A stretch of 64,000 bases of DNA, from contig NZ_JAJEJV010000004.1 in NCBI RefSeq assembly GCF_021390675.1, positions 1,736,001 to 1,800,000 of the forward strand, in the 5' to 3' direction. A program made the position numbers and the translations under genes. The notes under the pieces are model-generated. The model ran no database searches and was not told the DNA's origin. It worked only from the letters and a program-made list of their open reading frames with translations. Below, piece by piece: positions 13,709-56,519 of the stretch (position 1 is its first letter; every line of letters begins with the position of its first letter). The stretch is from Dyella sp. 2HG41-7. GTDB taxonomy: Bacteria > Pseudomonadota > Gammaproteobacteria > Xanthomonadales > Rhodanobacteraceae.

Positions 13709-13736
13709 CCGCAAGACACTGTGTTGTGCAGTGAAT

Positions 13737-13767
13737 GCCGAGGGGAGCAATCCCCTCGGCATTTTTT
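13737..13767 (+). terminator. Strong rho-independent terminator
   Basis: Stem GCCGAGGGG (13737-13745) / CCCCTCGGC (13752-13760), loop AGCAAT, then ATTTTTT. It lies 28 bases after the stop of the secreted protein gene. Confidence 0.95.
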
Positions 13768-14655
13768 ATGGCGGCGAAAATATGCGCGTTGCGTGCTGGC
13801 CACGTGTCGCTAAGAAAATTGTCGGCGATTAATAGGCGCCGAGATATTCCACGAGATATACGCATCGAATATCAGCATCGCGCTTTTAAGCGATGCCGCG
13901 CCTCGATTCATTCGCAGGGCGACGATTTGTCTCCGTTGTGAATTCTTCAGAACTCCATCGTTTACTAAATCGCCAAACCTGCGATCGCATGGAATGGATT
14001 TCCAGTTGATCCGCGTCGTCAGGCAGATGAAAGCCGGGGCCACATAGCGTTTTGTATCGATCCAAATTTAAGCGGCTTCCCATAAGTCCAAGAGGGACAA
14101 GGATTTATAGGAGGCGAAACTCGCTTTAATTCGATTTGCCAATGCGCCGTATTTTGATATTTGAACGCAAACAAACGTTCGAACTCATCTATTAAATGTG
14201 GCGGTTTGAGATCACATGGCGGAAATACATCCCGTGCAAAGTATTTTCAAAAGCACGGTAAGATCATCGTCATCACACTATGAAGTCAGGTCTCGACGCA
14301 TTGATGCGGATTCGAAGAGAGCGATCTATTAATTCGTGGATGAGGCAACACCCGGTTTGTTCAAGGACGAGTTCCAATTCGGCAGTCCAACACGCATTAA
14401 AGAAATGCGCGCGGCTGCCGATCTCATGATCGATCCTAAATACTTCGCCAAAGTTCGATTTTCAGAACACGGTCGATGTATCGAGGCGATGCAAAACGGG
14501 CGTTGTGCTGTTGGGTTTCATGGATACGAGTAGGTTGGCGGTATCGATGAAACCAAGGCCGTTCATGGATAGATGAGGAGGTTGATCAACGTTTTCTTTC
14601 AGCTCATTGCGTCAAGAGAGTCGTGGTGGGTAATTCACAAACGTGGACCGGATGA
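13768..14655. other. Gene-poor, lower-GC stretch
   Basis: Nearly 900 bases with no supported gene and visibly lower GC than the rest. A frame from a GTG at 14336 to 14533 could encode 65 residues but has no ribosome site and no recognisable family. The stretch may be a remnant of an inserted or decayed gene, ahead of the diguanylate cyclase at 14656. Confidence 0.5.
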
Positions 14656-15915
14656 ATGTCGTTCAAAGAGCTCCCTGATCTGCTAGCTGTTGGGTTGCTG
14701 ATTTATGCGTTTGTGACGGTGTCGCGACCGGCCGGCGGCATGATGACGCGCATGTGGCTGGCAGGCTGGATTTGCATCGAACTGCATTTCGCGGCGTATT
14801 CGTTTCTCGATGTGCCGGGCACCGCCGGCATCGTTGCCGACATTGTCGGAACCTCCGCGCTGGTGTGGTGCGCGGAACTCTTCAGTTGTTCGATGGATGC
14901 CCGGCTCGGGCAATGGGGATGTCGCGCGCTGTTCGCTGCGATGTCGACGATTTACACGTTATACATCGCGTTGGCGACGATACCTAACATACCGCAGCCG
15001 GTGATGATTGGCGCCGCCAGTCTTTTTGCCTGGGTGCCGTTACTGGTTGTGCTGGCGACGCCGCGCGAGAAGCGGCCGGCGAGCCGATGGATCACTGTCG
15101 GCATCAATATCGCGCTTTCCGTCGTGTTGCTCGGTTGGCAATTCTCCGCGCACGGCCCAGACCTGATGATTACGCTGCCGCTTTTCGTCGCTTATTTCAT
15201 TTGCTGTCTGCAATTTGCATTTTCCAATCAGCGGAAAACCGGCGGCTTCGTGGTGACGGTGTTGGGCTTGCTGGCGTGGTCGATGGTGTTTCCGCTCGGC
15301 ATGGTGTTCGGAATATTTTTCCCCAACGTCCAGGTCGGTGACGAGGTATGGAATCTGCCCAAGTATCTGGTGGCGGTGGGCATGATTCTGTTGTTGCTGG
15401 AGACACAGCTGAAACGCAACCAGCATCTTGCGCATCACGACGCTTTGACCGGTTTGCCGAATCGTCGCCTGTTTCAGGATCGCATCAGCGGCGCGATGGA
15501 GCGCGCGCGCCAACACGGTGTGCCAACTGCGATGCTGGCGATCGATCTGGACGGATTCAAGCAGGTGAACGATACGCTGGGCCATCACGCCGGCGATGAA
15601 GTGTTGAAGCAAGTGGCGTATCTGTTTACCGCGAGGCTTCGTCGTGTGGATACGTTGGCGCGCACAGGCGGCGACGAATTTTCCGTGGTATTGGAAGGCC
15701 CCATCACGCGCCGCGAAGCTTCCGAAGTCGCCCGTAATTTGAAGCAGTTGCTGGAAGCGCCGGTTCCGGTGGCGGGAAGCACCATCCAGATTGGCGCCAG
15801 CATCGGTTTGGCGATGTTTCCCGACGATGCGCAAACACCGGACAGCCTGTCCATTCTTGCCGACGAACGGATGTACGCGGCCAAGCGCGCCGGCGGTGGC
15901 GTGCAGTCCGCCTAA
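14656..15915 (+). CDS. Membrane diguanylate cyclase (N-terminal multi-span domain + GGDEF)
   Basis: 419 residues. About seven or eight transmembrane helices occupy residues 8-245, followed by a GGDEF domain (HDALTGLPNRRLF, then DLDGFKQVNDTLGHHAGDEV). The active-site GGDEF is at 338-342. An allosteric I-site is intact as RRVD five residues before it. It should convert 2 GTP to cyclic di-GMP at the inner membrane and be feedback-inhibited. There is no known sensor motif in the membrane part. The stop codon overlaps that of the convergent cupin gene by 4 bases. The ribosome site at the ATG is weak (GGA). Confidence 0.92.
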   Translation: MSFKELPDLLAVGLLIYAFVTVSRPAGGMMTRMWLAGWICIELHFAAYSFLDVPGTAGIVADIVGTSALVWCAELFSCSMDARLGQWGCRALFAAMSTIYTLYIALATIPNIPQPVMIGAASLFAWVPLLVVLATPREKRPASRWITVGINIALSVVLLGWQFSAHGPDLMITLPLFVAYFICCLQFAFSNQRKTGGFVVTVLGLLAWSMVFPLGMVFGIFFPNVQVGDEVWNLPKYLVAVGMILLLLETQLKRNQHLAHHDALTGLPNRRLFQDRISGAMERARQHGVPTAMLAIDLDGFKQVNDTLGHHAGDEVLKQVAYLFTARLRRVDTLARTGGDEFSVVLEGPITRREASEVARNLKQLLEAPVPVAGSTIQIGASIGLAMFPDDAQTPDSLSILADERMYAAKRAGGGVQSA

Positions 15916-20745: not shown

Positions 20746-22587
20746 CTACTTGGTCGGATTTGCGTTAGGCGATGCACCCATGGCGCCTTGTTCACTCGCG
20801 TCGCGGCGCACAGATGTAGCGCGAGGGCATTCGTTTACGCTGACGACGACGCGGTTTCTGCCTTCGCGCTTGGCACGATAGAGCGCGCTATCCGCTGCGA
20901 TAAGCAAGCCGCGCAGGTCGTACCCGTAATCGGCCGTGCAGGCAATGCCGAAACTGGCGGAGACGGGCACGCGCTCCGTTTCATGATATTCGCTCGCCTG
21001 AATGGCCAGGCGAATCCCTTCCGCGCGTTCCAGCGCCTGGACCAAGGTCGCTTCCGCAAGCAGCACGCCGAATTCCTCGCCGCCGAGGCGACCGAATACA
21101 TCGAAAGAATGCAGATGCTTGTGGCAAATCGCTACCGCGCGCTTGAGCACGTTGTCGCCGGAGGCGTGACCATACGCATCGTTGATGTTTTTGAAATGAT
21201 CCAGATCGAACAAGACCAGGCAGGCGACGCGCTGAGACTTGCGCGCATAGCGCAGCGATTGCTCCGCCTCGGAGACAAAATGCTGGCGATTGAATATGCC
21301 GGTAAGGCCGTCCCGTCGTGCGAGCTGCATAAAGCGCAATTGGGAGCGCTTGAGGCGGTAGAGCCAGAACGCGATCGAAGCCAGTACGGTTAGCAGCAAT
21401 GCAATGTAGAGACGGCTCGTAACCATCGCCTTGCGATCCAGCGACTGCTGCAATTGCAGAATCTGGTTTCGCCTGTCGAGCGCATCCAGTTCCGCTTTCT
21501 TGGCTTCCACTTGCTGCTTGACGATTTGATACGCGTAGGCTTTCTCGCGCAGATCGTCCAAATGACTGTTGTCGGCGAGGATATATTTTTCGTGATAGGC
21601 GATCGCTTCGCGCATGTCGCCTTTCTGCCGCGCGATCTGATAAAGCAATTGATAGGCTTTGATCAGCGGTTCGGAGAAACCGCTTTTTCCCGCCGTATCC
21701 ACGGTTATCTGGGCAAACTTCTCGGCTTGCCGTCCGTCTCCCTGTCTCCAGTAAGCCTCGGCGAGCAGCGCCTGGAATTGCGATATAAGGTTCACGTACC
21801 CGACGTGCTGTACTTCCGCATAGTGATCCTGCAGCAAGGCGATGGCGTCTTCGACGTTGCCTTGTTGAAGATCGATCTTCGCCCGGTAGAGTTGGATGGT
21901 GTCGGCCGACAGCAGATCATGATCCGCTTGGCATTGGCTAACACCGTCGTTGACCTGCGGTATGAGCGTGCTGGTTTGCTTTCCGCTGCCGAATTCGGCA
22001 GCGAGTTTTACTTCGATGCCCAAACAGCGGTAATACCCCGCGCCTTTGGTGGTCAGAATCTGGTCGGCGTAGTTGCTGGCGAGGTCGTATTGGGCCGCTT
22101 CGGTCAATAATTGCGAGGCATCAAAGAGAATGCGCAGCCGCGTGCGTAAAACCGTGACGCGCGGCAATGCGTCCAGCGCCTGGTCGAGATACCTGAAAGC
22201 TTCCTCGTAGTGATGACCAATGCCGAGGACGTTGATCAGCGTGCCTCTGGCCTGTTCCTTCAAGTCGATGTCGGGCGCTTGCGCGATCACCAATTCGAGC
22301 ATCGGTTTGGCTTTGTCGATCTGTCCGAGATAGCCCGACTGCCAGGCTTCCAGGTAACGCAGGTGCCATCGTTGCGCGTCCGAAAGACTCGCCTCTCGGC
22401 TTTCAATTTGAATCAACAACTTCGCGAAGGCTGCGTTATCGACCACCTCGATATCGTCGGCGCGAACGAAAAGCTGCGCCGTCTCTTCTTGCGCAGGTGT
22501 GCCGGCGCTTGCAGCGCGCAAAGCAAATCCAAGGAGCATGACTCCATAAGCCAAGGTTTTCCGCAGCTTGTTGCCGGTGATGCGCAT
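20746..22587 (-). CDS. TPR-type periplasmic sensor diguanylate cyclase (copy 2 of tandem pair)
   Basis: 613 residues. A signal peptide/N-terminal helix (1-27) is followed by a long helical TPR-like domain (about 40-370) predicted in the periplasm, then a coiled-coil (KKAELDALDRRNQILQLQQS), a transmembrane helix (SRLYIALLLTVLASIAFWLY) and a GGDEF domain. GGEEF is at 502-506. The I-site reads HSFD instead of RxxD, so product inhibition may be lost. It is about 80 bases downstream of a close paralog and may derive from a duplication. The C-terminal ~35 residues are a variable tail. Confidence 0.9.
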   Translation of the reverse strand: MRITGNKLRKTLAYGVMLLGFALRAASAGTPAQEETAQLFVRADDIEVVDNAAFAKLLIQIESREASLSDAQRWHLRYLEAWQSGYLGQIDKAKPMLELVIAQAPDIDLKEQARGTLINVLGIGHHYEEAFRYLDQALDALPRVTVLRTRLRILFDASQLLTEAAQYDLASNYADQILTTKGAGYYRCLGIEVKLAAEFGSGKQTSTLIPQVNDGVSQCQADHDLLSADTIQLYRAKIDLQQGNVEDAIALLQDHYAEVQHVGYVNLISQFQALLAEAYWRQGDGRQAEKFAQITVDTAGKSGFSEPLIKAYQLLYQIARQKGDMREAIAYHEKYILADNSHLDDLREKAYAYQIVKQQVEAKKAELDALDRRNQILQLQQSLDRKAMVTSRLYIALLLTVLASIAFWLYRLKRSQLRFMQLARRDGLTGIFNRQHFVSEAEQSLRYARKSQRVACLVLFDLDHFKNINDAYGHASGDNVLKRAVAICHKHLHSFDVFGRLGGEEFGVLLAEATLVQALERAEGIRLAIQASEYHETERVPVSASFGIACTADYGYDLRGLLIAADSALYRAKREGRNRVVVSVNECPRATSVRRDASEQGAMGASPNANPTK

Positions 22588-22667
22588 TATGGGTTCGGAA
22601 AGTCGGCGGGCCTGTGATGGAGAGTGCGCACGTCGCAGGTTAGCGTGCCTGGCATGATGGAAGTGCG

Positions 22668-24506
22668 TTACTCGGTCGAGTCGGCGTACAGGGACGTGCC
22701 GACCATGGTCTCGCCGGCTGGGTGGATGGTGGGAGAAGCGCCGGCGTGTTCGTTGATGCTGACGACGACACGATTGCGTCCCTCGTTCTTGGCGCGATAG
22801 AGCGCGCCGTCCGCAGCGATGAACAGACGACGCAAGTCGTATCCATGGTGCGTCGTTGAGGCGATGCCGAAACTTCCGGAAACCGGCACGTATTCCGATC
22901 CGTCATCGGGCTTTGCCGCAATAGCCTGGCGAATCTGTTCTGCGCGTTCGAGCGCTTGAATCAGGGCGCATTCGGGCAGAAGTATGCCGAATTCTTCGCC
23001 GCCAATTCGGCCGAATACATCGCACGAATGCAGATACTTTTGACAGGTCGCAACCGTGCGCTTGAGCACCTGGTCGCCGGTGATATGGCCGAAGGTGTCG
23101 TTGATGCTTTTGAAGTGGTCCAGATCGATCAGGATAAGGCAAGCCACGCGCCCGGATTTGGCGGCATAGCGCAGCGACTGCTCGGCTTCGTCCACAAAAT
23201 GCTGGCGGTTGAAAATGCCAGTAAGACCATCGCGTCGCGCCAGTCGCATAAAGCGCAACTGCGAACGTTTTAGACGGAACAACCAGAACACGACCGATGC
23301 GACGACGGTCAGCAGCAACACGATGTACAGGCGGCTCGTCACGACGGCTTTGTGATCGAGCGCTTGCTGCAACTGCAGGATCTGGTTTTTCTTGCCCATC
23401 TCGTCGAGCTCGATTTTCTTGGCTTCGACTTGCTGCTTGACGAACTGGTATGCCAGCGCTTTTTCGCGAATTTCGTCGAGACGTTCCTTGTCCGCCGTCA
23501 TGAATTTTTCGTGGTAGGCGAGCGCTTCGCGTAGATCGCCGCGCTGGCGAGCGATTTGATAGAGCAATTGGTAAGCGGTCGCCAACGGTTCGGCGAACTG
23601 GTCTTTGAGAGAGAGTTCGACCGTCCTTATTGCATAGTCTTCCGCTTGCGCGGTTTCGTTCTTTTGCCAATAGGCCTCGGCGAGCAGCGCGTCGTATTCG
23701 GCTGTCAATTCAGGGTAGCGATAGCCGACGACATGGGAGTAGCTTTGTTCGAGCAACGTAATAGCGTCCTCAATGCGCCCCTGTCGAATGGATAGGCTTG
23801 CGATATCGCGGCGCGCAGCATCGGCAAAAAGATTCTCATCGAATTGGACGCATGCGCGAATGGCGTCTTGGGCATGCGAGTTCCATCCTTGCAAGTGTCC
23901 GCCGAGGAAATTGGCGTGCGATTTCAAATACATGCCGACGCATTGATTTCTGCCGCCGGGATAGTCGCGAATGATTTGGTCGGCATAACTGGCGGCCAAG
24001 TCGTATTGCCCAGCGCCCGCCAGCAATTGCGACGCTTCGCCAAGCAGATGAAAACGTGCCTGAATATCGGAGACCTTCGGCAGCTGGTCCAACGCCTGGT
24101 CCACACGCGTGTACGCATCCTCGTAGTTGTGTCCGTATCCAAGAATGTTGACCAATGCCGCGGACGCGTGCATCCGGACAGCTTCGTCAGGCGTATCGCG
24201 AATGATCGTTTCCAACATCGTCCGGGCTTTCGCGAATTCGCCCGAGTAGCCGGTTTGCCAGGCTTCGAGGTAGCGAAGCTGCCATTTTTGAATTGGCGAC
24301 AGCGTCGCCACATTGGTGTCCAGGCGCGCCAGCAGCTCGACGAATGCGGCGTTGTCCGACGTCTTAATCGCGTCGGCGTGAGCGAGTGCGTCGGCTGGAT
24401 TGTTATAGGCAGGCGCAGTAGCGAGCGCTCTTCCTGTGCATAACGACAGGAAGAGCAAAAGAACTCGCCATTGCGGATTCCGGCGTTTTTGGCCGGGAGC
24501 GCACAT
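22668..24506 (-). CDS. TPR-type periplasmic sensor diguanylate cyclase (copy 1 of tandem pair)
   Basis: 612 residues, same architecture as the downstream gene: signal helix (about 12-30, VLLLFLSLCTGRALA), periplasmic TPR-like repeats (40-370, e.g. WQLRYLEAWQTGYSGEFAKA), coiled coil, transmembrane helix (SRLYIVLLLTVVASVVFWLF) and GGDEF with GGEEF at 502-506; the I-site is replaced by HSCD. It starts six bases after the stop of the small acidic peptide gene at 24513, so the two are translationally close. A third copy of this pair lies at 52972-55058. The TPR region could be a peptide receptor (inference). Confidence 0.9.
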   Translation of the reverse strand: MCAPGQKRRNPQWRVLLLFLSLCTGRALATAPAYNNPADALAHADAIKTSDNAAFVELLARLDTNVATLSPIQKWQLRYLEAWQTGYSGEFAKARTMLETIIRDTPDEAVRMHASAALVNILGYGHNYEDAYTRVDQALDQLPKVSDIQARFHLLGEASQLLAGAGQYDLAASYADQIIRDYPGGRNQCVGMYLKSHANFLGGHLQGWNSHAQDAIRACVQFDENLFADAARRDIASLSIRQGRIEDAITLLEQSYSHVVGYRYPELTAEYDALLAEAYWQKNETAQAEDYAIRTVELSLKDQFAEPLATAYQLLYQIARQRGDLREALAYHEKFMTADKERLDEIREKALAYQFVKQQVEAKKIELDEMGKKNQILQLQQALDHKAVVTSRLYIVLLLTVVASVVFWLFRLKRSQLRFMRLARRDGLTGIFNRQHFVDEAEQSLRYAAKSGRVACLILIDLDHFKSINDTFGHITGDQVLKRTVATCQKYLHSCDVFGRIGGEEFGILLPECALIQALERAEQIRQAIAAKPDDGSEYVPVSGSFGIASTTHHGYDLRRLFIAADGALYRAKNEGRNRVVVSINEHAGASPTIHPAGETMVGTSLYADSTE

Positions 24507-24512
24507 GATTGC

Positions 24513-24812
24513 TTACGCGCGAGAAAGCGATGAAGAAGCCAACGAGTGACGAACGCCACTCGGTTTTTCGTTGGGTTCTTCCTCTTCGTCCTCTTCTTCC
24601 TCTTCGTCGGGCGCTCCCGGGATCATGGTGCTCATCAATGTGGACGAATGCAGTAAGGCATATAAAGCCTCCGCATCCCGATTGATGATGGCCGAACGCA
24701 CCGACTCGTCGATATTCTCTGCTTCCAGCGCGAGCTGGACGTCTTCCTGAGATGCGTTGAGCCACTGGGCATCGCTGCCCATTTTTTCTAGAAATTCAAT
24801 CACGCTCAACAT
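24513..24812 (-). CDS. Small acidic peptide, candidate borosin-type RiPP precursor (orphan copy)
   Basis: 99 residues; ATAGGGGGAAG ribosome site (the ten bases ATAGGGGGAA are identical before the second precursor gene at 52972). An N-terminal helical part (VIEFLEKMGSDAQWL ... AIINRDAEALYALL, about 1-53) resembles the borosin binding domain of Shewanella SonA, as I remember it. Next comes a hydrophobic stretch STLMSTMIPGAP (57-68) where SonA carries its methylated core, then a run of acidic residues (69-79) and a Ser-rich tail. There is no methyltransferase nearby; the gene lies directly before two TPR-GGDEF genes. The precursor role is an inference. Confidence 0.65.
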   Translation of the reverse strand: MLSVIEFLEKMGSDAQWLNASQEDVQLALEAENIDESVRSAIINRDAEALYALLHSSTLMSTMIPGAPDEEEEEDEEEEPNEKPSGVRHSLASSSLSRA

Positions 24813-46053: not shown

Positions 46054-46402
46054 GGAAGCTCCTCTTTGGGTGACGCTGTGAGAGGAACCTATCGCATGTC
46101 GCGCGACAAAAAGCTGAGCGGCGATGACGCGGTTTCACTGCCGTTGCAGAAATACATCGCAGTCCAACGGAATGTTTACACGCAAACCGTTGTGGCGCTT
46201 GTTCATTCCGCAAAGTAAATCATCTATGAAGGCGTGCGGCGTCATGTTTGCAGTTTCGCGAGCCTTACGCTTAGCGGGAATGATGCGTGAATTTCGACTT
46301 GTTGCTGTGTGCACGATGTGTCGTTGCGCAATATTCGGAGTGTGATGCGTCGATGCGATTTGTAGAGTGACGATGACGTTCAACGATTCGAAGGATGCCT
46401 GG
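46054..46402. other. Divergent intergenic region
   Basis: About 350 bases between the YXWGXW gene and the oxygenase gene, AT-richer than the genes. I see no supported gene; it should hold the divergent promoters. Confidence 0.45.
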
Positions 46403-47140
46403 ATGAGTCACGCGATTGCCCTTGCCACAACGTCGTCCCTGCATGATCGGTGGGATGCGCTGGACGAGTCTCGCCTTGCTGCGGACCTCGATCGATTCGG
46501 CGCCGCCACAATTTCTGGCTTGCTGAGCGCCGACGAATGCGCAGCACTGGCGTCGATGTACGGCGACGACCGCCATTTCAGAAGTCGCGTCGTGATGGGC
46601 CGGCATGGATTCGGAAGCGGTGAATACAAATATTTCGCATACCCGCTGCCGAACATCATTCAGACGCTCCGAACGGCGATGTATCCACGGCTAGCCGGAA
46701 TCGCCAATCGATGGAACGACGCCATGGGCATCGACGTGCGCTACCCGAAAACGCATCAGGAATACCTCGATCGCTGTCATGCCGCCGGTCAGTTGCGCGC
46801 AACACCGCTGCTGCTCAAATACGGTGTCGGCGACTACAACTGCCTGCATCAGGATTTGTATGGCGAGCACGTCTTTCCATTGCAAATGGCGATCTTGCTG
46901 TCGCAACCCGCCAAGGACTTCACCGGCGGCGAATTCGTGCTGACCGAACAACGCCCGCGCATGCAATCGCGGCCGGAGGTGGTGCCGCTGCGACAAGGCG
47001 ATGCGGTGATCTTCGCCGTGCATCATCGACCCGTGCAGGGCTCGCGCGGCGTCTATCGCGTAACAATGCGGCACGGCGTCAGCCGCCTTCGCGCCGGACA
47101 TCGATTTACCGTGGGGATTATTTTTCACGACGCCACCTGA
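46403..47140 (+). CDS. 2-oxoglutarate/Fe(II)-dependent oxygenase
   Basis: 245 residues from the ATG at 46403 (GAAGG upstream; ATG/GTG codons at 46367-46373 would add 10-12 residues). Jelly-roll core: LKYGVGDYNCLHQDLYGEHVFPLQ (metal HxD), then ILLSQPAKDFTGGEFVLTE, and VYRVTMRHGVSRLRAGHRFTV with the C-terminal His and the Arg for 2-oxoglutarate. This is a prolyl-hydroxylase-like oxygenase. Substrate unknown. Followed by a strong terminator. Confidence 0.85.
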   Translation: MSHAIALATTSSLHDRWDALDESRLAADLDRFGAATISGLLSADECAALASMYGDDRHFRSRVVMGRHGFGSGEYKYFAYPLPNIIQTLRTAMYPRLAGIANRWNDAMGIDVRYPKTHQEYLDRCHAAGQLRATPLLLKYGVGDYNCLHQDLYGEHVFPLQMAILLSQPAKDFTGGEFVLTEQRPRMQSRPEVVPLRQGDAVIFAVHHRPVQGSRGVYRVTMRHGVSRLRAGHRFTVGIIFHDAT

Positions 47141-47184: not shown

Positions 47185-47859
47185 TCAGGTTCGTGCCGCG
47201 GTGCGCGGTCGGTGATGCAGAGGCGGCGGGGAGGAGGGCGCGCGGAAGGGCACCACGCCCGCGTCGATGGGCAACTGCGCATCGCTCAGCATGGCCAGCA
47301 AGGTTTCCCCGTAGATTAGCTCGAAGGGTTTGCCGACCACGAATTTCCACGCATCCTCGGTGTAATCGCCGCAGGCGACGATCTTCACGGCGGATGCACG
47401 GTGAAATTTCATCAGGTGATGCATCTCGCGCACGTCTTTGATCTCGACGTTGCGATTGCGCCAATGGCGGCACTGCACCAGGGTGGTCAGTCCGTGCTTG
47501 CGCAGGATCAGGTCCAGCCCGTTGTCCGCATCGGGTTGCCCGGCATGCTCGACCGTATAGCCCCGGAAACGAAACGCCTGCGCCAGACGATTTTCAAAGG
47601 CGCGCCAATGCATGGTGTGCAATTCCGACAGTTCGTCGCGCACGACCAGACGATGCATGCGTTTGCGATAGCCCAGGCATGAGGCGAACGCGCAACCCCA
47701 GATCGCGCTCAGCAACATCCAAAGCAATAACGAATACACCGCCGTGTGCGCGCCGCGCCCGTAGTGGATGCCCACGTACGCGCTCGCGCCGAGCAGGATG
47801 CCGGCTGGCCAGTGCACCGAAACGACATGTCCGATGCGAAGTGTTCTGTGCTTCGCCAT
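47185..47859 (-). CDS. Membrane-anchored Mrr-like nuclease domain protein (paralog)
   Basis: 224 residues from the ATG at 47859. Two hydrophobic helices (about 17-35 and 42-60) precede an Mrr_cat-type domain: MHWRAFENRLAQAFRFRGYT, DADNGLDLILRKHGLTTL and VQCRHWRNR. The usual QxK Lys is replaced: VQCRHW instead of VQCKRW (Lys to Arg), so the active site may be dead or altered compared with the 18129-18806 paralog, which keeps QCK. Both share the same membrane layout. Confidence 0.78.
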   Translation of the reverse strand: MAKHRTLRIGHVVSVHWPAGILLGASAYVGIHYGRGAHTAVYSLLLWMLLSAIWGCAFASCLGYRKRMHRLVVRDELSELHTMHWRAFENRLAQAFRFRGYTVEHAGQPDADNGLDLILRKHGLTTLVQCRHWRNRNVEIKDVREMHHLMKFHRASAVKIVACGDYTEDAWKFVVGKPFELIYGETLLAMLSDAQLPIDAGVVPFRAPSSPPPLHHRPRTAART

Positions 47860-48213
47860 CAACTCCCCCGAGCTGTGAACGCTGCTTACGAACTACAGCT
47901 CGACCTTAACGCGGTCGATTCTCAAGATCAGCGTGCAGTGCGGCATTCGGCCGCGGCGCTTTACAGGAGCGCTCTAAGCGCCTTGGTGTGGCGTGTTTTT
48001 GTGCGATGCGGCGATATTTCGAGCCAAAATGCGCTTTATGACGGTGGAAAATGTCAAAAAGATCGTGATCCGAACGCCACCCGTAAAAGCCCAAAAGGCC
48101 GGAGCAACAGCGGGGAAACAGCAAATCGACTGTTTCTTCACGCCACGCGTGCAAAACCATCACTGCGGCCACCGCCGCGAAGTTTTGGCTATGACAACGG
48201 GACGGCCTTTCCT
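47860..48213. other. Divergent intergenic region
   Basis: About 350 bases between the Mrr-like gene and the small paralog gene at 48214. Open frames upstream of 48214 lack ribosome sites. I see nothing else beyond presumed promoters. Confidence 0.45.
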
Positions 48214-48585
48214 ATGAGTCGCAAGGCGCACACCAACGTATCCGGCACGCGCGTGAACTGGGACGATCCGCAGCTTGCCTCGCTACTGCAGCGTAGCGAA
48301 AGCTGGAGCATCGACAATCGAGGCGGTTTCTCCCCGCAAGACGTGGAAATCTACGTCGGCTGGAGCGGATCGATCGGCCGGCCGGCCGTATTGGTTTGGG
48401 AGCGCGGCAACGCAGTCGTGCTGGAAACGAAGTTCCCAATTGAGAAGGGCGAGCAGATCCGCGTGGACAAGCACCTCGGCGACCGCATCCGCACGCTGTG
48501 GGCCATGGTCGTCGATGGACGGGAAGGGACGCGCGACGAGGATCGCAAGAACGGCGTCCACATCTATTGGCTGCAGGTGCGCTAG
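48214..48585 (+). CDS. Unknown-family protein (paralog of 56145-56519)
   Basis: 123 residues from the ATG at 48214. Beta-rich composition: VNWDDPQLASLLQRSESWSI, VEIYVGWSGSIGRPAVLVWE, VVLETKFPIEKGEQIRVDKH, LWAMVVDGREG and NGVHIYWLQVR. It aligns along its whole length with the protein at 56145-56519; conserved motifs are NWxDP, DNRGxF, VGW, GExxRVD, VxGREGxRxED and NGVxxxWL. The strand order loosely recalls a PilZ-type c-di-GMP effector barrel, but the RxxxR and DxSxxG motifs are missing, so that is only a hypothesis. The next gene is a sensor diguanylate cyclase. Confidence 0.7.
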   Translation: MSRKAHTNVSGTRVNWDDPQLASLLQRSESWSIDNRGGFSPQDVEIYVGWSGSIGRPAVLVWERGNAVVLETKFPIEKGEQIRVDKHLGDRIRTLWAMVVDGREGTRDEDRKNGVHIYWLQVR

Positions 48586-48649: not shown

Positions 48650-48771
48650 AGACGGCGTTTGCACATGGGCCTGCGCTATGGTTTGCCTCGGACTCGCGTG
48701 CCGTGCGCGAGGACGCGGACGCATGGACGCTCGGGTGGTCCGTGCGGCACGAACACGGGGATCATGGTGCG

Positions 48772-50505
48772 GTGAAAGCAGAGGCGAACGGCCTGGCGGC
48801 CAGCTCCCTGCAGAGCTGGCGTCGCAGGTTTGCAGCAGATGTCGTTGTTATCGCTTGCATCGTTTTGCTGGCATGGGCGGGTCGTGCGCATGCGCAAGCG
48901 ATCAGCCTCGCTTCGTTTACACAAGCCCAAGGGCTGGGCAGCCTGGAAGACAATTGCCTGGCGCAAGACCGACGCGGGTTTGTGTACGTCTGCACAGAAA
49001 ACGGTCTATTCCGATTCGACGGCCACGTGTTCCAGCGTATCGGCGCAGCTAACGGGTTGCGCGCGAGCTTTATCGCGGCCATTCATCAGGACAGCGCAGA
49101 ACGTCTGTGGGTAGGCACGCGCACGGGTCTTTTTGTGGGCGACGGTCAGCATTTCACACCGGCTAGTGAGCCGTCGAATGCGTTGTTGGTCGATCCCGGT
49201 CAGACCCTCGCGGATTTGCATGGCAGGCTTTACGCGGTAAGCCAGCACCAGTTGTGGGCGATCGACGCAGCGGGAACCGGTTGGCACGCCAGCCAACTGT
49301 TCGATGACGCCGCACGCCGCGCGACGCCCGCACTGGACGATGTCACCAGCGTCTTCGCCGATGGCCATGCGCTGTGGTTCGGTTGCGGCAAATCGCTGTG
49401 CCAATCGGTCGATGGCCACTTGCAGGTGTGGGGCGATTCGCAAGGTATTCCGGCAGATACCTGGACGTCTTACCTCCACACTCACGACGGCACGCTGTGG
49501 GTGCGCAGCCCGCTTTATATTCGCGCATTGTCGCCTGGCGGCAACACATTCGCGAATCATGACTTGCCGGGCGCGCACGTCGTCACGGCGTATTTGGACA
49601 TGATCGAAGACGATCAGGCGCGCGTGCTGACACGCGCCGACGATGGCCTGGCGCGCTGGGACGGTCGTGCGTGGCGCGTGTTCAACGGCAGCAACGGTCT
49701 GCCCAACATCGGCATCGACGCGTTGTTGTACGACCGCAGCCACGTATTGTGGATCGGCACGTACGGGCACGGCGTCTTGCAATGGCGCGGCTACGATCAA
49801 TTTCAAAGTTGGCAGGCGGCGCAAGGTTTGGACAGCAGTCCAAGCTGGGCCATAGCGCGCGCCGGCGACGGCACGCTGTGGGTAGGCGATGAATTGGGCG
49901 GCAGCGTGCTCAAGCCAGGCGCTACGCGCCTGACCCCGTGGCCACTGAAAGCGCCACCGCTGGCGCAGGAAACCACCGGACTTCATGCGCTACCCGATGG
50001 CGACATGCTGGCCGCTTATTACTCGGGCGAGGTGCTGCGCTATCACGCACGCCAAGGCACGACAGAAGAAATCCTGCATTCGCCGGCTTACATCCACAAC
50101 ATGTGGGGCGACAGCCGCGGATGGTTATGGCTGTGCACCGAGCGTGGCCTCTACCAATTCGACGGCCACACCTTGCAGCACGCTGGCGGCGACGTTGTTC
50201 CCGACAATGTATTCCATGATGCGAAAGAAGACGCCAAAGGCCGGATGTGGTTTGCCGGCGAAGCGGGGTTGTTTCGCTTTGATCATGGCGTGTGGACGCA
50301 CGTTCGCGTTGTCGGCGCGCCTTCCGACAAGGCGTTTGCGCATCTGGATGTGCTCAGCGACGGCACGTTGTACCTAGCCGGCAATTTCGATGGTTTGTGG
50401 AAGGGCCAGTTGACCGACGGCGACACGATCGACGTGCAACATGTCGTCGACGATTTGCTCGACGACACGCGCATCTATTTTATCGAGCACGATCGCCGCG
50501 GCTGA
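48772..50505 (+). CDS. N-terminal part of a propeller-type sensor diguanylate cyclase (in-frame TGA)
   Basis: 577 residues from the GTG at 48772 (an upstream GTG at 48703 is possible), with a signal/transmembrane helix (FAADVVVIACIVLLAWAGRA, cleavage near AHA). It contains many Reg_prop blades (LGSLEDNCLAQDRRGFVYV, LWVGTRTGLF, LWFGCGKSL, LWIGTYGHGVLQW, LWVGDELGGSVL), making a periplasmic ligand-sensing double propeller. The frame stops at TGA 50503-50505 in the middle of a blade: ...FIEHDRRG stop LWIGGTDG. The rest of the protein continues in the same frame at 50506. A CGA-to-TGA change would explain the break. It is a split or decayed gene unless the stop is read through. Confidence 0.8.
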   Translation: MKAEANGLAASSLQSWRRRFAADVVVIACIVLLAWAGRAHAQAISLASFTQAQGLGSLEDNCLAQDRRGFVYVCTENGLFRFDGHVFQRIGAANGLRASFIAAIHQDSAERLWVGTRTGLFVGDGQHFTPASEPSNALLVDPGQTLADLHGRLYAVSQHQLWAIDAAGTGWHASQLFDDAARRATPALDDVTSVFADGHALWFGCGKSLCQSVDGHLQVWGDSQGIPADTWTSYLHTHDGTLWVRSPLYIRALSPGGNTFANHDLPGAHVVTAYLDMIEDDQARVLTRADDGLARWDGRAWRVFNGSNGLPNIGIDALLYDRSHVLWIGTYGHGVLQWRGYDQFQSWQAAQGLDSSPSWAIARAGDGTLWVGDELGGSVLKPGATRLTPWPLKAPPLAQETTGLHALPDGDMLAAYYSGEVLRYHARQGTTEEILHSPAYIHNMWGDSRGWLWLCTERGLYQFDGHTLQHAGGDVVPDNVFHDAKEDAKGRMWFAGEAGLFRFDHGVWTHVRVVGAPSDKAFAHLDVLSDGTLYLAGNFDGLWKGQLTDGDTIDVQHVVDDLLDDTRIYFIEHDRRG

Positions 50506-51717
50506 TTGTGGATTGGCGGCACGGACGGGGTGGAATTCTTTAACGGCCAGCACTGGCGTCGCTTGACCATGGACGACGGATTGATCTGGAACGACGTCGC
50601 CGAAAACGGATTCTTCGAAGACACCGACGGCTCGGTGTGGATCGGTACCAGCAACGGCATTTCCCATATTCTCGAGCCGGCGTCGCTGACCGCGCCAAAT
50701 ACCTTGGAAGTGGCCATCACCGCTGTCGCACGCGGCGCTGTCGCGCAGCCGCAGGCATCGTCTTACCGTTTCAACTACAAGAACAAACTTTCGCTGTCGC
50801 TGTATCTGGCGACGCTCAATGCGCCCACGCGCACCACTTTGCAATATCGCTACCGCTTGAAAGGCTTGGAACGCGATTGGGTGAGTTCGGATCGACCGCG
50901 CGTCGATTACCCGCCGCTGCCGCCCGGCAATTTCACCTTTGAAGCGATGGCCTACGATCCGGACAATCGGCAGTACTCGCCCGTCGTGCAATTGTCTGTG
51001 CGCATCGTGCCGCCGTGGTGGCAGCGGACGCCGGCGGTGCTTGGCATGTTGACGCTATTGGCGCTTGGCATCGTGCTGGCGTGGCACATGCGAACGCGAC
51101 ATTTGCGTGCGCGCGCGCGTTCGTTGGAAGCCTTGGTCGCGTCCCGTACACGCGAGTTGGAAGTGGATAAACAGGCGCTCGAAGTCGCGCGCGCGGCGTT
51201 GTGGCAACAAGCTACGCACGACGCATTAACGGGTTTGCCCAACCGCTCGCATGTGTTGGATATCCTGGCGCAGGCCATGCGCGATGCGCGCAAGCAAAAC
51301 CAGCCCTTGGCTGTCGCGTTGATCGATCTCGATCATTTCAAACGTATCAACGACCACTACGGCCATCTCACCGGCGACGCCGTGTTGATCGAAGCTTCCG
51401 CGCGCCTGCGCGCCGCGCTGCCGCCGGGCGGCACGCTGGGGCGTTATGGCGGCGAAGAAATTCTGGCGGTGGTGCCCAACGTCCCGCGCCACGATCCCGC
51501 GCCCTTCGAGGCGTTGCGGCAGCACATTTCCAAAGGCGTTTTCGGCGCCGATGATGCACATGTCGAACTGACGTGTTCCATCGGGGTGTCGTGGTTGCAA
51601 CCGCCAGACAAAGACGCTTTCGACCTGATTCGACGCGCCGACACCGCGCTGTATCTGGCTAAGACCGAAGGGCGCAACCGTGTCGTGGCGGAGGGCGAGC
51701 GCTGGGAGCCTTCGTGA
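50506..51717 (+). CDS. C-terminal part of the same sensor diguanylate cyclase (last blades, Y_Y_Y, TM, GGDEF)
   Basis: 403 residues in the frame of the preceding gene, beginning with a TTG directly after its TGA. It finishes the propeller (LWIGGTDGVEFF, VWIGTSNGISHI), then a Y_Y_Y beta-sandwich (LQYRYRLKGLERDWVSSDRP), a transmembrane helix (VLGMLTLLALGIVLAW), a coiled coil and a GGDEF domain (ATHDALTGLPNRSHVLDIL; GRYGGEEILAV). The signature is GGEEI rather than GGDEF/GGEEF, and there is no RxxD I-site. If made alone it would be a membrane protein without its sensor part. Confidence 0.8.
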   Translation: MWIGGTDGVEFFNGQHWRRLTMDDGLIWNDVAENGFFEDTDGSVWIGTSNGISHILEPASLTAPNTLEVAITAVARGAVAQPQASSYRFNYKNKLSLSLYLATLNAPTRTTLQYRYRLKGLERDWVSSDRPRVDYPPLPPGNFTFEAMAYDPDNRQYSPVVQLSVRIVPPWWQRTPAVLGMLTLLALGIVLAWHMRTRHLRARARSLEALVASRTRELEVDKQALEVARAALWQQATHDALTGLPNRSHVLDILAQAMRDARKQNQPLAVALIDLDHFKRINDHYGHLTGDAVLIEASARLRAALPPGGTLGRYGGEEILAVVPNVPRHDPAPFEALRQHISKGVFGADDAHVELTCSIGVSWLQPPDKDAFDLIRRADTALYLAKTEGRNRVVAEGERWEPS

Positions 51718-51902: not shown

Positions 51903-52796
51903 ATGGATATTGCAGGTCCTATTTTCAGTGCGAACCGGGCACGGAACTTGCCTTCTGGTCACCCAATGGATACGACAACGCTTCAGCACAACATTTCGCG
52001 CGGCAGCCTGGCCTGTGTAGGCATGGGCATGACCCTGGGCTCCCACCTGACGCCACTGGCGCGCAGCCATATCGAGCAGGCGGACGTGGTGTTCGCCGGG
52101 CTTTCCGACGGCATCGTGGAGCTATGGCTCAAGCGCATGAATGCGGATGTGCGCAGCCTTCAGCCTTACTACAAAGAAGGCAAGTCGCGATTGAAGACCT
52201 ACAAGGAATGGGTCGAAGTGATGATGACCGAAGTGCGCGCCGGCAAGCGGGTTTGCGGCGTGTTTTACGGGCATCCGGGCATCTTTGCGTGGTCGCCGCA
52301 CAAAGCCATCGCTGCTGCGCGCGCGGAAGGCTTCGAGGCGCACATGGAGCCCGGCATTTCCGCTGAAGACTGTCTTTATGCCGATCTGGGTATCGATCCC
52401 GGCAAGTTCGGTTGCCAGCATTACGAAGCTAGCCAACTGCTTTTCTACGAGCGACGCATCGATCTGGCGGCGTATTTGGTGCTGTGGCAAGTCGGCGTGG
52501 TCGGCGATCGTTCGCTGGGGCGCTTCAACACCGGGCCCGCGTACAAGCAGGTGCTGGTGGATATGCTGAGCAAGGACTATCCGCTCGACCACGAAGTGAT
52601 CATTTATCGCGGGGCTACGCTGCCGATCGAAAAGCCGCGCATCCGTCGCGTGGCCTTGCGCGATTTGCCCTATACGCCGTTTACGGTCGAGGAAACCGTG
52701 GTGCTGCCGCCGGCCGAACCGCTCAAGCCGAATATCGCGATGCGGGAACGGCTTGAGGCCTTGGATAAGCAGGAAGAGGCAAATAGCGCGGCCTGA
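51903..52796 (+). CDS. Borosin-type alpha-N-methyltransferase (split, SonM/OphMA-like; TP-methylase fold)
   Basis: 297 residues from the ATG at 51903 (GAAAGGG upstream); an ATG at 51966 without a ribosome site is the alternative. The TP-methylase fold is clear: SLACVGMGMTLGSHLTPLAR (35-54), a GVFYGHPGIFA loop (119-129) and EPGISAEDCLYADLGIDPG (149-167). The strongest match I recall is to borosin methyltransferases OphMA and SonM, including R96, Y100, Y122 at the same spacing as their catalytic R/Y/Y, and LWQVGVVGDRSLGRFNT plus YPLDHEVIIYRGATLPIE. These enzymes methylate backbone amides of a precursor peptide. In the split bacterial form the precursor is a separate gene, and here a candidate follows at 52972. 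Confidence 0.85.
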   Translation: MDIAGPIFSANRARNLPSGHPMDTTTLQHNISRGSLACVGMGMTLGSHLTPLARSHIEQADVVFAGLSDGIVELWLKRMNADVRSLQPYYKEGKSRLKTYKEWVEVMMTEVRAGKRVCGVFYGHPGIFAWSPHKAIAAARAEGFEAHMEPGISAEDCLYADLGIDPGKFGCQHYEASQLLFYERRIDLAAYLVLWQVGVVGDRSLGRFNTGPAYKQVLVDMLSKDYPLDHEVIIYRGATLPIEKPRIRRVALRDLPYTPFTVEETVVLPPAEPLKPNIAMRERLEALDKQEEANSAA

Positions 52797-52971
52797 ATGG
52801 CGCGCGCCGCAGCATCGGCCATTCAGGGTGACTAGGAAAAACAGGACCGAAGCGTGCGATGTCACCATTCGGTCTCATAATGCCCGGGCCAATTTGGGTT
52901 AGGCGAGATGGCTTTGGGGCGCAAACGGCATCGAGTTGTTGTTTCATGATTGCAGAAATAGGGGGAAAGAC

Positions 52972-53253
52972 ATGACAGATACGATCGAGTTGTTGGAAGC
53001 CATCGGCCAGAACGCGTCGCTGCGTTACGCCTCGACGGAAACACTGACCGAAGTGCTCGAACAGGCGCAGGCGTCTGAGGCATTGACTGCTGCCGTGATT
53101 ACCGGTGACAGCAAGCAGTTGTTCGCAGAATTCGGGCGCATGGAACACGCACCGCCTCAGTCCACCCAGCAGACGCCCGGTCACGAAGAGGAAGAGGAAG
53201 AAATTCCGGCGCCTCCCGCACCCGCGCAACCGCCGACGCCGGGCAAGGCGTAA
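52972..53253 (+). CDS. Candidate split-borosin precursor peptide
   Basis: 93 residues. Strong ribosome site AGGGGGAAAG, with the ten bases ATAGGGGGAA shared with the second precursor at 24513. Residues 1-55 form a helical domain (TIELLEAIGQNASLRYASTE ... AVITGDSKQLFAEF) with the LxxxGQxAxL ... A(V/I)xTGDxxxL pattern of the borosin binding domain in SonA. The tail (56-93) contains RMEHAPPQSTQQTPG, six Glu (72-77) and a Pro/Ala-rich end. The methyltransferase ends 175 bases upstream; the TPR-GGDEF gene starts 30 bases downstream. The methylated core is not known. Confidence 0.75.
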   Translation: MTDTIELLEAIGQNASLRYASTETLTEVLEQAQASEALTAAVITGDSKQLFAEFGRMEHAPPQSTQQTPGHEEEEEEIPAPPAPAQPPTPGKA

Positions 53254-53282
53254 CGCTTGCCTCGCGCCTAGACGACGTCGAC

Positions 53283-55058
53283 ATGCTCCGGCTACGCAGC
53301 CGCTTCACGCTATGGCCCATCATCGTGGCCATGGCTTGGAGCGCGCTCGTACAGGTCGGTTACGCGGCCATGTCGATTTCCAATCCAGCCGAATTTCTGG
53401 AACAGGCTGAAAGCGTGCATGCGGTCGATCATGCGCGATTCGTGCAGATGCTGGCGCAAATTCACCGCGAAGCGCCGCCATTGAAGCCCGCCGAGCAATG
53501 GCACCTGCGTTATCTCGATGCATGGGAAGCCATGTTCGAAGGCGACTATGCGAAGTCGGAGACTGAGCTTCGCGACGTTATCGATCACTCCGGTGATCCA
53601 ACGCTCGCCGCCAAGGCATTGGCGCAATTAATGGACAACCTTGCGACGAACCGTCGTTACGAGGAGGCGTTCGCGATGGCGAATCGCCTGACGGCCGGCT
53701 TATCGCAAATCACGGATCGCAAAACGCGTTTCTGGCTGTTTTACGAGCTGTCGCAAATGTCCAACTATGCGGGCCAGATCGATCTGGCGATCCAATACGC
53801 GCATATGGCGGCCGATAGCGCGCCTCCCGGCAGCTCGCTGTGTTTTCCTTACTACTTGCAGGTTGCGGCGCTCTACAACGGCAAACGGCTGACGTCGGGC
53901 AGCCCTGAACTGCACGAGGCCATCGAGACGTGCGATGCCTCGAAGTACCCGGTAACCGCCAACGCGGCATGGCTGATTTTGGTCAGCCTTCATCTGGACG
54001 AAAACCAGCCCGCCAAAGCCATGGCCCTGCTGGATCACATCGAGCCGGCCATCCGCGCCAGCCACTACTACCCGCACATGCTTTCGTCGCAGGTGCAACG
54101 CGCGCAGGCGTACGCAGAGCTCGGAGATGACAACAGCGCGAAAACCGCAGCGCTCGCCGCCATCGGCATGAGTCATCCGAACGAAATCAGCGAGTGGCTG
54201 ATGGTGGCGTACGACGTCCTTTACAAGGCTGAAAAAAAGCTCGGTCACAGCGCCGCTGCGCTTTCGTATTACGAACATTACGCCGCTCAGGACAAGGGTT
54301 ATCTCGACGACATCAGCGCGCGTTCGTTAGCTTACGAAGTGGCTCAGCAGAATATGCTGATGCAAAAATTCGAGACCGAAAGACTGAGCAAGCAGAACAA
54401 TATTCTGAGATTGCAGCAGCAACTCGCCACCAAGGCGGTCGAGACCAGCCGGCTGTATATCGTGCTGCTGATTATGGTGCTGGTGTTTATTGTTTTTTGG
54501 CTGTTCCGGCTTAAGCGCTCGCAACTTCGCTTCAAGATACTGGCTCGCCTCGACGGTCTTACTGGTGTTTTCAATCATCAGCACTTTATCGGCGAGGCCG
54601 AGCGTGCGCTTCGCGGGCTGGAGAAAAAGCACGGTGTCGCTTGCTTGATCTCCATCGATCTGGATCACTTCAAGCAAGTCAACGATACGCACGGCCATGC
54701 CATCGGCGACGCGGTGTTGAAGCACACGGTCGCTATCTGCAAACAACATCTGCGTCCCACCGATTTGTTCGGTCGCCTGGGCGGTGAGGAATTCGGTATT
54801 TTGCTAATGGGGTGTTCGCGCGATCAGGGCGCGGCCATTGCCGATCGTATCCGCATGGCGATCGAAGCCACGCCGATGGATAAAGACGAATGTGTCGTGG
54901 CGTTTTCCGCCAGTATCGGTCTTGTCTCCACCGAAACCTGCGGCTACGACCTGCATCAACTTTGGCGCGAAGCAGACTCGGCGCTCTATCGCGCCAAGCG
55001 CACGGGACGCAATCGACTTATCGTCGACACCGGCAGCGACGTTCTGCTTAGCGCGTAA
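53283..55058 (+). CDS. TPR-type periplasmic sensor diguanylate cyclase (precursor-linked copy)
   Basis: 591 residues; same family as 20746 and 22668. N-terminal signal helix (1-28), periplasmic TPR-like region (about 35-370, e.g. QWHLRYLDAWEAMFEGDYAK, FWLFYELSQMSNYAGQIDLA), coiled coil (FETERLSKQNNILRLQQQLA), transmembrane helix (about 400-420) and GGDEF with GGEEF at 500-504. The I-site is intact here (RPTD five residues before), unlike the two paralogs. It sits 29 bases after the peptide gene, and the start at 53283 has no strong ribosome site, which fits translational coupling. Confidence 0.9.
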   Translation: MLRLRSRFTLWPIIVAMAWSALVQVGYAAMSISNPAEFLEQAESVHAVDHARFVQMLAQIHREAPPLKPAEQWHLRYLDAWEAMFEGDYAKSETELRDVIDHSGDPTLAAKALAQLMDNLATNRRYEEAFAMANRLTAGLSQITDRKTRFWLFYELSQMSNYAGQIDLAIQYAHMAADSAPPGSSLCFPYYLQVAALYNGKRLTSGSPELHEAIETCDASKYPVTANAAWLILVSLHLDENQPAKAMALLDHIEPAIRASHYYPHMLSSQVQRAQAYAELGDDNSAKTAALAAIGMSHPNEISEWLMVAYDVLYKAEKKLGHSAAALSYYEHYAAQDKGYLDDISARSLAYEVAQQNMLMQKFETERLSKQNNILRLQQQLATKAVETSRLYIVLLIMVLVFIVFWLFRLKRSQLRFKILARLDGLTGVFNHQHFIGEAERALRGLEKKHGVACLISIDLDHFKQVNDTHGHAIGDAVLKHTVAICKQHLRPTDLFGRLGGEEFGILLMGCSRDQGAAIADRIRMAIEATPMDKDECVVAFSASIGLVSTETCGYDLHQLWREADSALYRAKRTGRNRLIVDTGSDVLLSA

Positions 55059-55776: not shown

Positions 55777-56144
55777 GTCATCGCTCCCTGGTTGCGTTCG
55801 TAGGCGTGGCTGCGGATGGCGCGGACAAACTGTCGGGTACGGCTCCACGCCATGCCCGGCACATCCATTGTCTTACTAACGACGAACAGAGGTTCGCTGG
55901 ATCGACAGTCGTTTAAGCGCGTCATGCATCCGGGCTAAAGAAAAACGTCAATACGCCGATAAGAAGCCTAAAGCGCGCTTTCGATCTCAAAGGCGCTGAA
56001 TTCTCCGCGTCCAGGTCCCCCGGCCTTGGCGTGGCGAGCAGGCCGGTTGAAGGCAGTTGTGGTTGTCGCGGTAGCAGGGATGGCACCGTGGTGTTATGTG
56101 CGGAGAAGAACGCGTAGGCGTCACCCCATGGAATGTCCATTTGC
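55777..56144. other. Divergent intergenic region
   Basis: About 370 bases between the exported protein and the second unknown-family paralog. I see no supported gene or repeat. Confidence 0.45.
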
Positions 56145-56519
56145 ATGAGCCATATCAAGTCCAGCTCGAAGCTGTCCAACAACCAAGTGGATTGGAACGA
56201 TCCGCGCTTGGAAGCGTTGCTGCGCAAAACGGACGGCTGGAAGCTCGATAACCGCGGCGCGTTTCAGGCTCAGGGCGTACATGTTCACGTCGGTTGGGGC
56301 GCCAATTCTGTGCGCGACGCCGTGTTGGTGTGGGAAAGCGATCGCGTGATGGTGGTCGAGACCCGTTTCGTGATTCAGCAGGGCGAACACGTGCGCGTGG
56401 ACCGAGTTGTCGGGAACAGCCTTCGAACGGTCTGGGGTGTGGTGGCGGAAGGTCGCGAAGGCTTTCGCGAAGAAGACAAACTCAACGGCGTCTTCGTGCA
56501 CTGGTTGCACATGTGCTGA
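56145..56519 (+). CDS. Unknown-family protein (paralog of 48214-48585)
   Basis: 124 residues from the ATG at 56145 (an in-frame ATG at 56133 would add four). Shares the whole length with the 48214 gene: VDWNDPRLEALLRKTDGWKL, DNRGAFQAQGVHVHVGWGAN, VMVVETRFVIQQGEHVRVDR, VWGVVAEGREGFREEDKLNG, VFVHWLHMC. No signal peptide. As with its paralog, it lies beside c-di-GMP genes (the EAL/CBS/GGDEF gene converges from the other side), so a c-di-GMP-related role is a hypothesis only. Confidence 0.72.
   Translation: MSHIKSSSKLSNNQVDWNDPRLEALLRKTDGWKLDNRGAFQAQGVHVHVGWGANSVRDAVLVWESDRVMVVETRFVIQQGEHVRVDRVVGNSLRTVWGVVAEGREGFREEDKLNGVFVHWLHMC

Follow-up and report, generated by a model that had tools for sequence, protein, structure and literature searches.

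A borosin-type methyltransferase, its likely precursor peptide and a conserved TPR-GGDEF receptor: a candidate signalling cassette in Dyella

Introduction

The locus at 51903-55058 of the window, the stretch of 64,000 nucleotides analysed here from the soil bacterium Dyella sp. 2HG41-7, raises the question of why a borosin-type methyltransferase and a small acidic protein are encoded beside genes of c-di-GMP signalling. On the plus strand, a frame of 297 aa (51903-52796) is followed after 175 bases by one of 93 aa (52972-53253), and after a further 29 bases by one of 591 aa (53283-55058). The initial annotation had proposed the first as a borosin enzyme and the second as its candidate precursor, and both open frames were found where it had placed them, the 93-aa frame starting with the ATG at 52972, 175 bases past the stop codon of the enzyme. 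As judged from sequence, the locus comprises a borosin-type methyltransferase, a likely precursor, the methylation of which is predicted, and a conserved third gene encoding a TPR-GGDEF receptor. We propose, with a probability of roughly one half, that the three genes form a signalling cassette in which the receptor's ligand is the methylated peptide or a fragment of it.

The methyltransferase

The 297-aa protein contains the segments GVFYGHPG and PGISAEDCLYADLGIDPG, on which the initial annotation had drawn, and its TP-methylase fold was recovered far beyond chance by Pfam (TP_methylase, E 5.6e-20). A PDB search (E <= 0.001) retrieved 25 sequences, all of them borosin methyltransferases by title, among which SonM was the best match (E 1.1e-73) and the OphMA/dbOphMA group followed at E about 1e-49. 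The OphMA type and other fused fungal borosins thus have the methyltransferase fold in common with the window enzyme, but carry the core fused to the enzyme, whereas in the window the core lies on a separate gene. Assignment to the cobalamin or siroheme methylases was rejected, as the enzyme grouped with them neither in the PDB search nor in NCBIfam, where the corresponding models remained far under their cut-offs (CysG, 20 bits vs 400; CobM/CbiF, 18 vs 260) and the top match, YabN, scored 30 against a cut-off of 525. Three further proteins of the genome match TP_methylase, each with a higher Pfam family score than the enzyme, as would be expected of ordinary family members.

The residues R96, Y100 and Y122, which had been proposed as catalytic from their spacing, align to R67, Y71 and Y93 of SonM in the PDB alignment (positions counted by hand), and Y90 aligns to SonM Y58. 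R96 and Y122 were invariant in 15 aligned proteins, that of the window included, and Y90 and Y100 were at least 90% conserved; in SonM, Y58, R67 and Y71 are described as linked to catalysis (PMC8429565). The side-clamp loop carries a 3-residue deletion. Since relatives have little in common before approximately residue 32, translation of the enzyme may in fact begin at M22 (51966). By its sequence, the 51903-52796 protein is a borosin alpha-N-methyltransferase of the split kind; together with the retained active-site residues and a separate precursor with a predicted five-helix leader, this enzyme of the borosin branch would place the locus among the type IV split borosins.

A hairpin just past the methyltransferase stop (window z -3.0) was considered as a conserved expression switch and discarded, the mean z over 127 methyltransferase frames being -0.28, with values below -2 in 9 of them.

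The precursor peptide

Relatives of the 93-aa protein were found by profile search in 37 of 39 related loci (the exceptions being L035 and L043), and the frame is therefore very probably a real gene. Its predicted layout is a five-helix leader, the borosin binding domain, at residues ~1-55, followed by a core and an acidic, proline-rich tail (RMEHAPPQSTQQTPGHEEEE..., 53137-53250, plus strand), the register of which is extrapolated from a colinear alignment with SonA. That alignment, 6-61 to 6-61, was obtained when a profile of 48 precursors was searched against the PDB: SonA was the top match (E 0.011), and the first seven rows were all SonA constructs. The single-sequence PDB search with the 93-aa precursor gave no SonA match. 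In the AF2 model (mean pLDDT 69.8), five helices span residues 2-54 ahead of an unstructured tail, and Foldseek placed SonA (9ch7_H) at rank 1, with E 1.3 and a TM-score of 0.64 over the SonA chain; four of the nine rows were SonA. The SonA-like helical N-terminus and the pairing with the enzyme, both claimed by the initial annotation, are thus supported by scores that are individually weak and concordant in ranking SonA first by profile and by fold, and together with the recurrence at the related loci they make the 93-aa protein the likely precursor of the adjoining enzyme.

The same comparison shows how the window resembles and departs from the SonM/SonA system of Shewanella oneidensis (PMC8429565). 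As described there, enzyme and precursor are likewise separate and in the same order, the active-site residues are alike, and the SonA leader is a five-helix bundle; SonA, however, is methylated at L63 and I65 of a shorter core, whereas the window precursor has a polar PQxxQ core and a long acidic proline-rich tail. By extrapolation, the L63/I65 register would fall on Q63 and T65 of the window precursor.

A PQxx[QNH] motif was present in the core of 31 of the 48 precursors, and an acidic run in the tail of 39. The window core, PPQSTQQTPGH, is polar, not hydrophobic, while the borosin cores tested so far are described as usually hydrophobic (PMC11285071). Other cassettes have hydrophobic cores followed by proline and acidic residues, e.g., PLVGFVIPGEEEE in the paralogous core of L088. 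In none of the 48 precursors examined was a strongly hydrophobic N-terminus found.

Some loci carry unusual precursor arrangements. A Luteibacter locus (L026, 10897-13168, plus strand) encodes seven tandem precursors with one enzyme and one receptor placed after the precursors; their cores vary around PQxxQ, and six of the seven are without the long acidic tail. The precursors at 8473-8919 of L092 and 8076-8435 of L093 (both plus strand) have internal tail repeats, DKDEEEIRxxA and TGTQMPS, and are possibly multi-core.

Conservation of the three-gene unit

When 12 window proteins (46-60 kb) were compared with the 39 related loci, conservation was confined to three of them, namely the enzyme, its precursor and the protein at 53283-55058. 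The receptor followed the enzyme in 37 of the 39; L033 was without it, none was found in the remaining 2.4 kb of the L043 contig, and L023 was truncated at the end of its contig. No exporter, protease or transcription factor was among the genes conserved at the 39 loci in this comparison. The initial annotation had regarded the c-di-GMP neighbours as unusual; the downstream TPR-GGDEF gene is, however, a regular member of the unit and no peculiarity of this locus, and the upstream GGDEF genes are not conserved. The Reg_prop and Y_Y_Y-GGDEF genes upstream (48703-51717) were rejected as members of the unit, since the Reg_prop protein matched only two of the 39 loci (L028 and L040), where the match had 23% identity and lay at a different place in the locus. 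The Reg_prop / Y_Y_Y / GGDEF gene (48703-51717, plus strand) is a single frame interrupted by a TGA stop at 50503-50505, and would be a broken gene or an assembly error.

Several other features around these genes were recorded. Two small related proteins, at 56133-56519 and within 47746-48585 (both plus strand), share the pattern VNWDDP...YVGW or HVGW; that at 56133-56519 had no Pfam match at E 1, and in L019, L020 and L023 relatives are found no more than 6 kb from the enzyme. The protein at 46367-47140 (plus strand) is a 2OG-Fe(II)-type oxygenase (Pfam Oxygenase-NA, E 4.8e-89). Among the related loci, the L005 contig, titled Candidatus Eremiobacteraeota, encodes an enzyme 81% identical to that of the window and is probably a mis-binned Dyella-like contig, and L022 has a second tandem cassette (13325-15152, plus strand) of enzyme and precursor, with the receptor present only as a 129-aa fragment.

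The linkage was then counted on 119 methyltransferase frames fetched regardless of receptors (the window, the 39 loci, 20 stretches and a set of 53). The sensor family occurred within 6 kb in 108 of them, or in 106/117 with two repeats left out; with 15 frames added that had been chosen for receptors or fusions, the count was 123/134. In these 123, the nearest output was a GGDEF domain downstream (86), a kinase downstream (12), a GGDEF domain upstream (8), a kinase upstream (1), a GGDEF domain on the other strand (1), a fusion (6), or another or no recognised output (9). The 11 frames without a sensor were L033, L043, L074, L077-L081, L104, L130 and L132, and in L130 a TPR-histidine kinase is present that the sensor model missed. 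At first, 21 of 127 frames had appeared receptor-less; on rechecking, the receptor was found upstream in L106, L123, L126, L136 and L137, on the other strand in L114 and in a broken frame in L098, and L110, L112 and L146 had TPR-only partners. L033 and L104 each have the enzyme and two precursors with no receptor within the stretch examined; L203 and L204 have receptors but, within theirs, neither an enzyme nor a detected precursor. A distant enzyme outside the family at L079 (4523-5764, plus strand) is directly followed by an MFS transporter and so differs from the receptor cassettes.

At the genome level, a strong sensor (E <= 1e-30) was found in 13/13 genomes with the enzyme and 0/11 without, two of these 11 having weak matches at about 1e-11. 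In these 24 genomes, which had been picked by enzyme presence or absence and had contributed in part to the sensor profile, 32 of 37 strong sensors had an enzyme at most 6 kb away and each of the 28 enzymes had a sensor at no greater distance, the distances being judged by eye. Across 197 genomes of the family, 123 had both, 8 the enzyme only, 1 the sensor only and 65 neither. Of the eight enzyme-only genomes, five carry a divergent sensor in one chain with the enzyme; the other three (G015, G083 and G189) had weak enzyme matches (E about 1e-4) that an alignment search at E 1e-15 did not recover. Outside the family, the enzyme was rare, with matches in 8 of 367 other genomes of the class sample (E 1e-25), but in the order of one of these, G544, it was found in 61 of 247 genomes.

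Could the locus nevertheless be an ordinary type IV split borosin with a functionally unlinked GGDEF neighbour? GGDEF genes are common, with 29 matches in the genome, and the upstream GGDEF pair is not conserved, as this explanation would have it. Linkage across families, co-absence in genomes and the protein fusion described below speak against it, and we hold it to be very improbable. The linkage indicates a shared pathway; the direction of the signal is not given by linkage.

The TPR-GGDEF receptor

In the third protein (53283-55058, plus strand), a signal-like segment at the N-terminus is followed by a TPR sensor, a membrane helix at ~384-413 and a GGDEF domain at 422-578, as delineated by Pfam, hydropathy and AF2 (mean pLDDT 90.2). 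Pfam gave GGDEF at E 1.1e-38, and its best TPR match (E 2.5e-5) fell just short of Pfam's cut-off. Both the N-terminal segment and the membrane helix before GGDEF were present by hydropathy, and the GGDEF domain carries a GGEEF motif and an RxxD site. The protein can accordingly be described as a putative membrane-bound GGDEF receptor with its sensor predicted to be periplasmic, and cyclase activity is predicted from GGEEF, which is of the active type.

From 87 receptors collected, 79 GGDEF receptors were aligned. Pfam found GGDEF in all of these and TPR models in subsets, most commonly TPR_14 (43) and TPR_12 (32); GG[DE]EF was present in 79/79, RxxD in 62/79 and a helix before GGDEF in 78/79. 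The N-terminal hydrophobic stretch passed the hydropathy threshold in only 41/79, and the topology of the remaining receptors is therefore less sure. Two cysteines stood out in the sensor, C187 (codon 53841-53843) and C217 (codon 53931-53933, both plus strand), conserved in 79/79 and 78/79 receptors, respectively; no other sensor column contained cysteine in more than 15 of the 79. The pair is consistent with a disulfide in the periplasm.

Exchange of the output domain and fusion to the enzyme

The partner of the enzyme is not always a GGDEF protein. In the order of G544 it can be a TPR-histidine kinase, e.g., in L076, whose 1086-aa frame includes REC and Hpt domains; those of L128, L134 and L139 were checked by Pfam. 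TPR-only partners without GGDEF were found in L108 (checked by Pfam) and L144. At L075 (5291-11293, minus strand), a SonA-like precursor, a 990-aa kinase receptor, the enzyme and a GGDEF receptor stand in a row, so that a single enzyme has the kinase receptor upstream and the GGDEF receptor downstream; several receptors per enzyme also occur in L085, L111 and L147. The cysteine pair was complete in 138 of 149 sensors, the 11 without it being nine kinases and two TPR-only proteins; the kinases L128 and L129 retain it with the spacing of 30 seen in the GGDEF receptors. The sensor is thus retained while the output varies among GGDEF, histidine kinase and none.

In the genus g26, the sensor, the GGDEF domain and the methyltransferase are joined in one chain (six proteins of 829-893 aa from five genomes). 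Pfam identified TPR (weakly), GGDEF and TP_methylase in two of these fusions, and a precursor-like frame lies just upstream in 5/6, in one case at E 0.2 only.

A second cassette without an adjoining enzyme

The window contains, 27 kb away from the first cassette, a second precursor (24516-24812, minus strand; 99 aa without stop; precursor HMM E 3.6e-16), which has a more hydrophobic core, STLMSTMIPGAPDEEEEEDEEEE, followed by proline and acidic residues and shares 30% identity with the first precursor over 70 columns (pair E 2e-8). Directly after it is a TPR-GGDEF receptor, 2a (22671-24506, minus strand; sensor HMM E 3e-111), with GGEEF and the cysteines C191 and C221 at a spacing of 30, as counted in the open frame; a tandem TPR-GGDEF receptor, 2b (20749-22902, minus strand; E 1.6e-99), an open frame whose start is not fixed, has GGEEF and, counted from the likely start, C188/C219 at a spacing of 31. 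A tblastn search near 20749-24812 with the enzymes (E 10) returned chance-level matches only, the best at E 0.30 over 15 residues, and thus no methyltransferase. A precursor and a receptor without an adjoining enzyme were also seen in L201 and L202 (from G172 and from one locus of G112), and in G172, a draft 86% complete, a genome search found no enzyme anywhere.

Precursor and receptor thus occur together without an adjoining enzyme, and a peptide-receptor pairing is therefore favoured. The arrangement suggests that the enzyme may act in trans on precursors encoded elsewhere.

It also bears on an alternative in which the receptor senses an envelope or environmental cue and controls the production or use of the borosin, the peptide acting elsewhere, e.g., as an antibiotic or a metal ligand. 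Linkage alone suits a regulator as well as a receptor, and in the g26 fusions the methyltransferase stands at the end of a sensor-GGDEF protein like an output domain. Such an arrangement would not, however, explain why precursor-receptor units persist where no enzyme adjoins; a transcription factor is absent among the conserved genes, and one enzyme with several receptors, as in L085, L111 and L147, would be odd for a pathway switch. We therefore regard this alternative as unlikely, albeit a serious one.

Co-variation of core and sensor

The relation of the precursor core to the sensor was assessed by partial correlations of distances in 71 cassettes and three subsets, each with two core windows, giving eight settings. 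The correlation of core with sensor given the enzyme (0.18-0.52) was above that of core with enzyme given the sensor (0.04-0.28) in 8/8 settings, in agreement with a first run, although such distance tests are liberal on related sequences. The core tracked the GGDEF domain better than the sensor in 2/8 settings, and with the longer core window the value for the thinned set was near noise, being reached by 31 of 500 shuffles. A clean split, in which the leader follows the enzyme and the core follows the sensor, was seen outside the Rhodanobacteraceae when the shorter core window was used and less so with the longer; it was absent from the Rhodanobacteraceae, in which the leader tracks the sensor too (0.48-0.61). 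Because the split was inconsistent across sets, only the weaker statement is kept, namely a weak core-sensor association that is suggestive.

The two settings that favour GGDEF would suit a further alternative, that the precursor, once methylated, remains in the cytoplasm and binds the GGDEF domain as a small regulatory protein, requiring neither release nor export. The lack of a strongly hydrophobic precursor N-terminus, the acidic run in 39/48 tails and the absence of a protease among the conserved genes point the same way. Against it, the element kept across outputs is the sensor and not GGDEF, and TPR-only partners occur (L108 and L144); on this evidence we consider a cytoplasmic regulator improbable.

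Discussion

The reading that we prefer remains the signalling cassette with the methylated peptide as ligand. As predicted from SonM/SonA, the methyltransferase would dock the helical leader and N-methylate backbone amides of the core. The core would then be freed and would reach the periplasm by a route without a conserved protease or exporter, where the methylated peptide or a fragment of it may bind the TPR solenoid of the 53283-55058 receptor. Binding would alter the activity of the cytoplasmic GGDEF domain and hence the c-di-GMP level; in related cassettes, sensors of this family are coupled to a histidine kinase instead. How the peptide gains access to a periplasmic sensor is left unexplained by this scheme, because the precursors have no strongly hydrophobic N-terminus and neither an exporter nor a protease is conserved. 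A more general form of the proposal, which we put forward tentatively and as somewhat short of an even chance, is that gammaproteobacterial split borosins are peptide signals, N-methylated on the backbone and read by dedicated periplasmic TPR receptors, mostly with a cysteine pair ~30 residues apart and feeding varied outputs (c-di-GMP synthesis, histidine-kinase phosphorelay), and that one methyltransferase can serve several precursor-receptor pairs in trans, perhaps also in this window.

TPR receptors of peptide pheromones are known from the RRNPP family of Gram-positive bacteria (Rap, PlcR and others), in which they are cytoplasmic. The common idea would be a TPR solenoid reading a ribosomal peptide; in contrast to the cytoplasmic RRNPP receptors, the window sensor is predicted to be periplasmic and is fused to GGDEF or, in related cassettes, to a kinase.

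Within the borosin field, a GGDEF-sequence-containing domain is listed among borosin architectures in the legend to Fig. 1 of PMC11395268, which holds both main-text mentions of GGDEF in that paper, and a GGDEF link or fusion is therefore not new to the field. The portion of PMC11395268 covered here contains no mention of the sensor, the cysteine pair or histidine-kinase versions. Among the matches listed for borosin and RiPP papers, GGDEF appeared only in PMC11395268, and the word is absent from the main text of PMC8429565, while L102, a close SonM relative (SonM match E 1.6e-143), has a TPR-GGDEF protein after its precursor. In the borosin literature searched, coverage of which was partial, nothing was found on TPR sensors, on paired cysteines, on versions with a kinase or on a role in signalling. 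The TPR sensor, the cysteine pair and the kinase outputs thus go beyond the known GGDEF mention, and the link may be described in literature outside this coverage.

According to the 2021 split-borosin paper, no such pathway had yet been tied to a final natural product (PMC8429565). A family of receptors found beside the enzyme in several families of gammaproteobacteria, joined to it in one protein in a single genus, and constant in its sensor while its outputs are swapped, provides a testable function, namely peptide signalling into c-di-GMP or a phosphorelay. If this is true, the c-di-GMP level or the kinase output would be a ready read-out for finding the mature product. The conserved receptor as a third part of the pathway suggests that bacterial borosin peptides may serve as signals.
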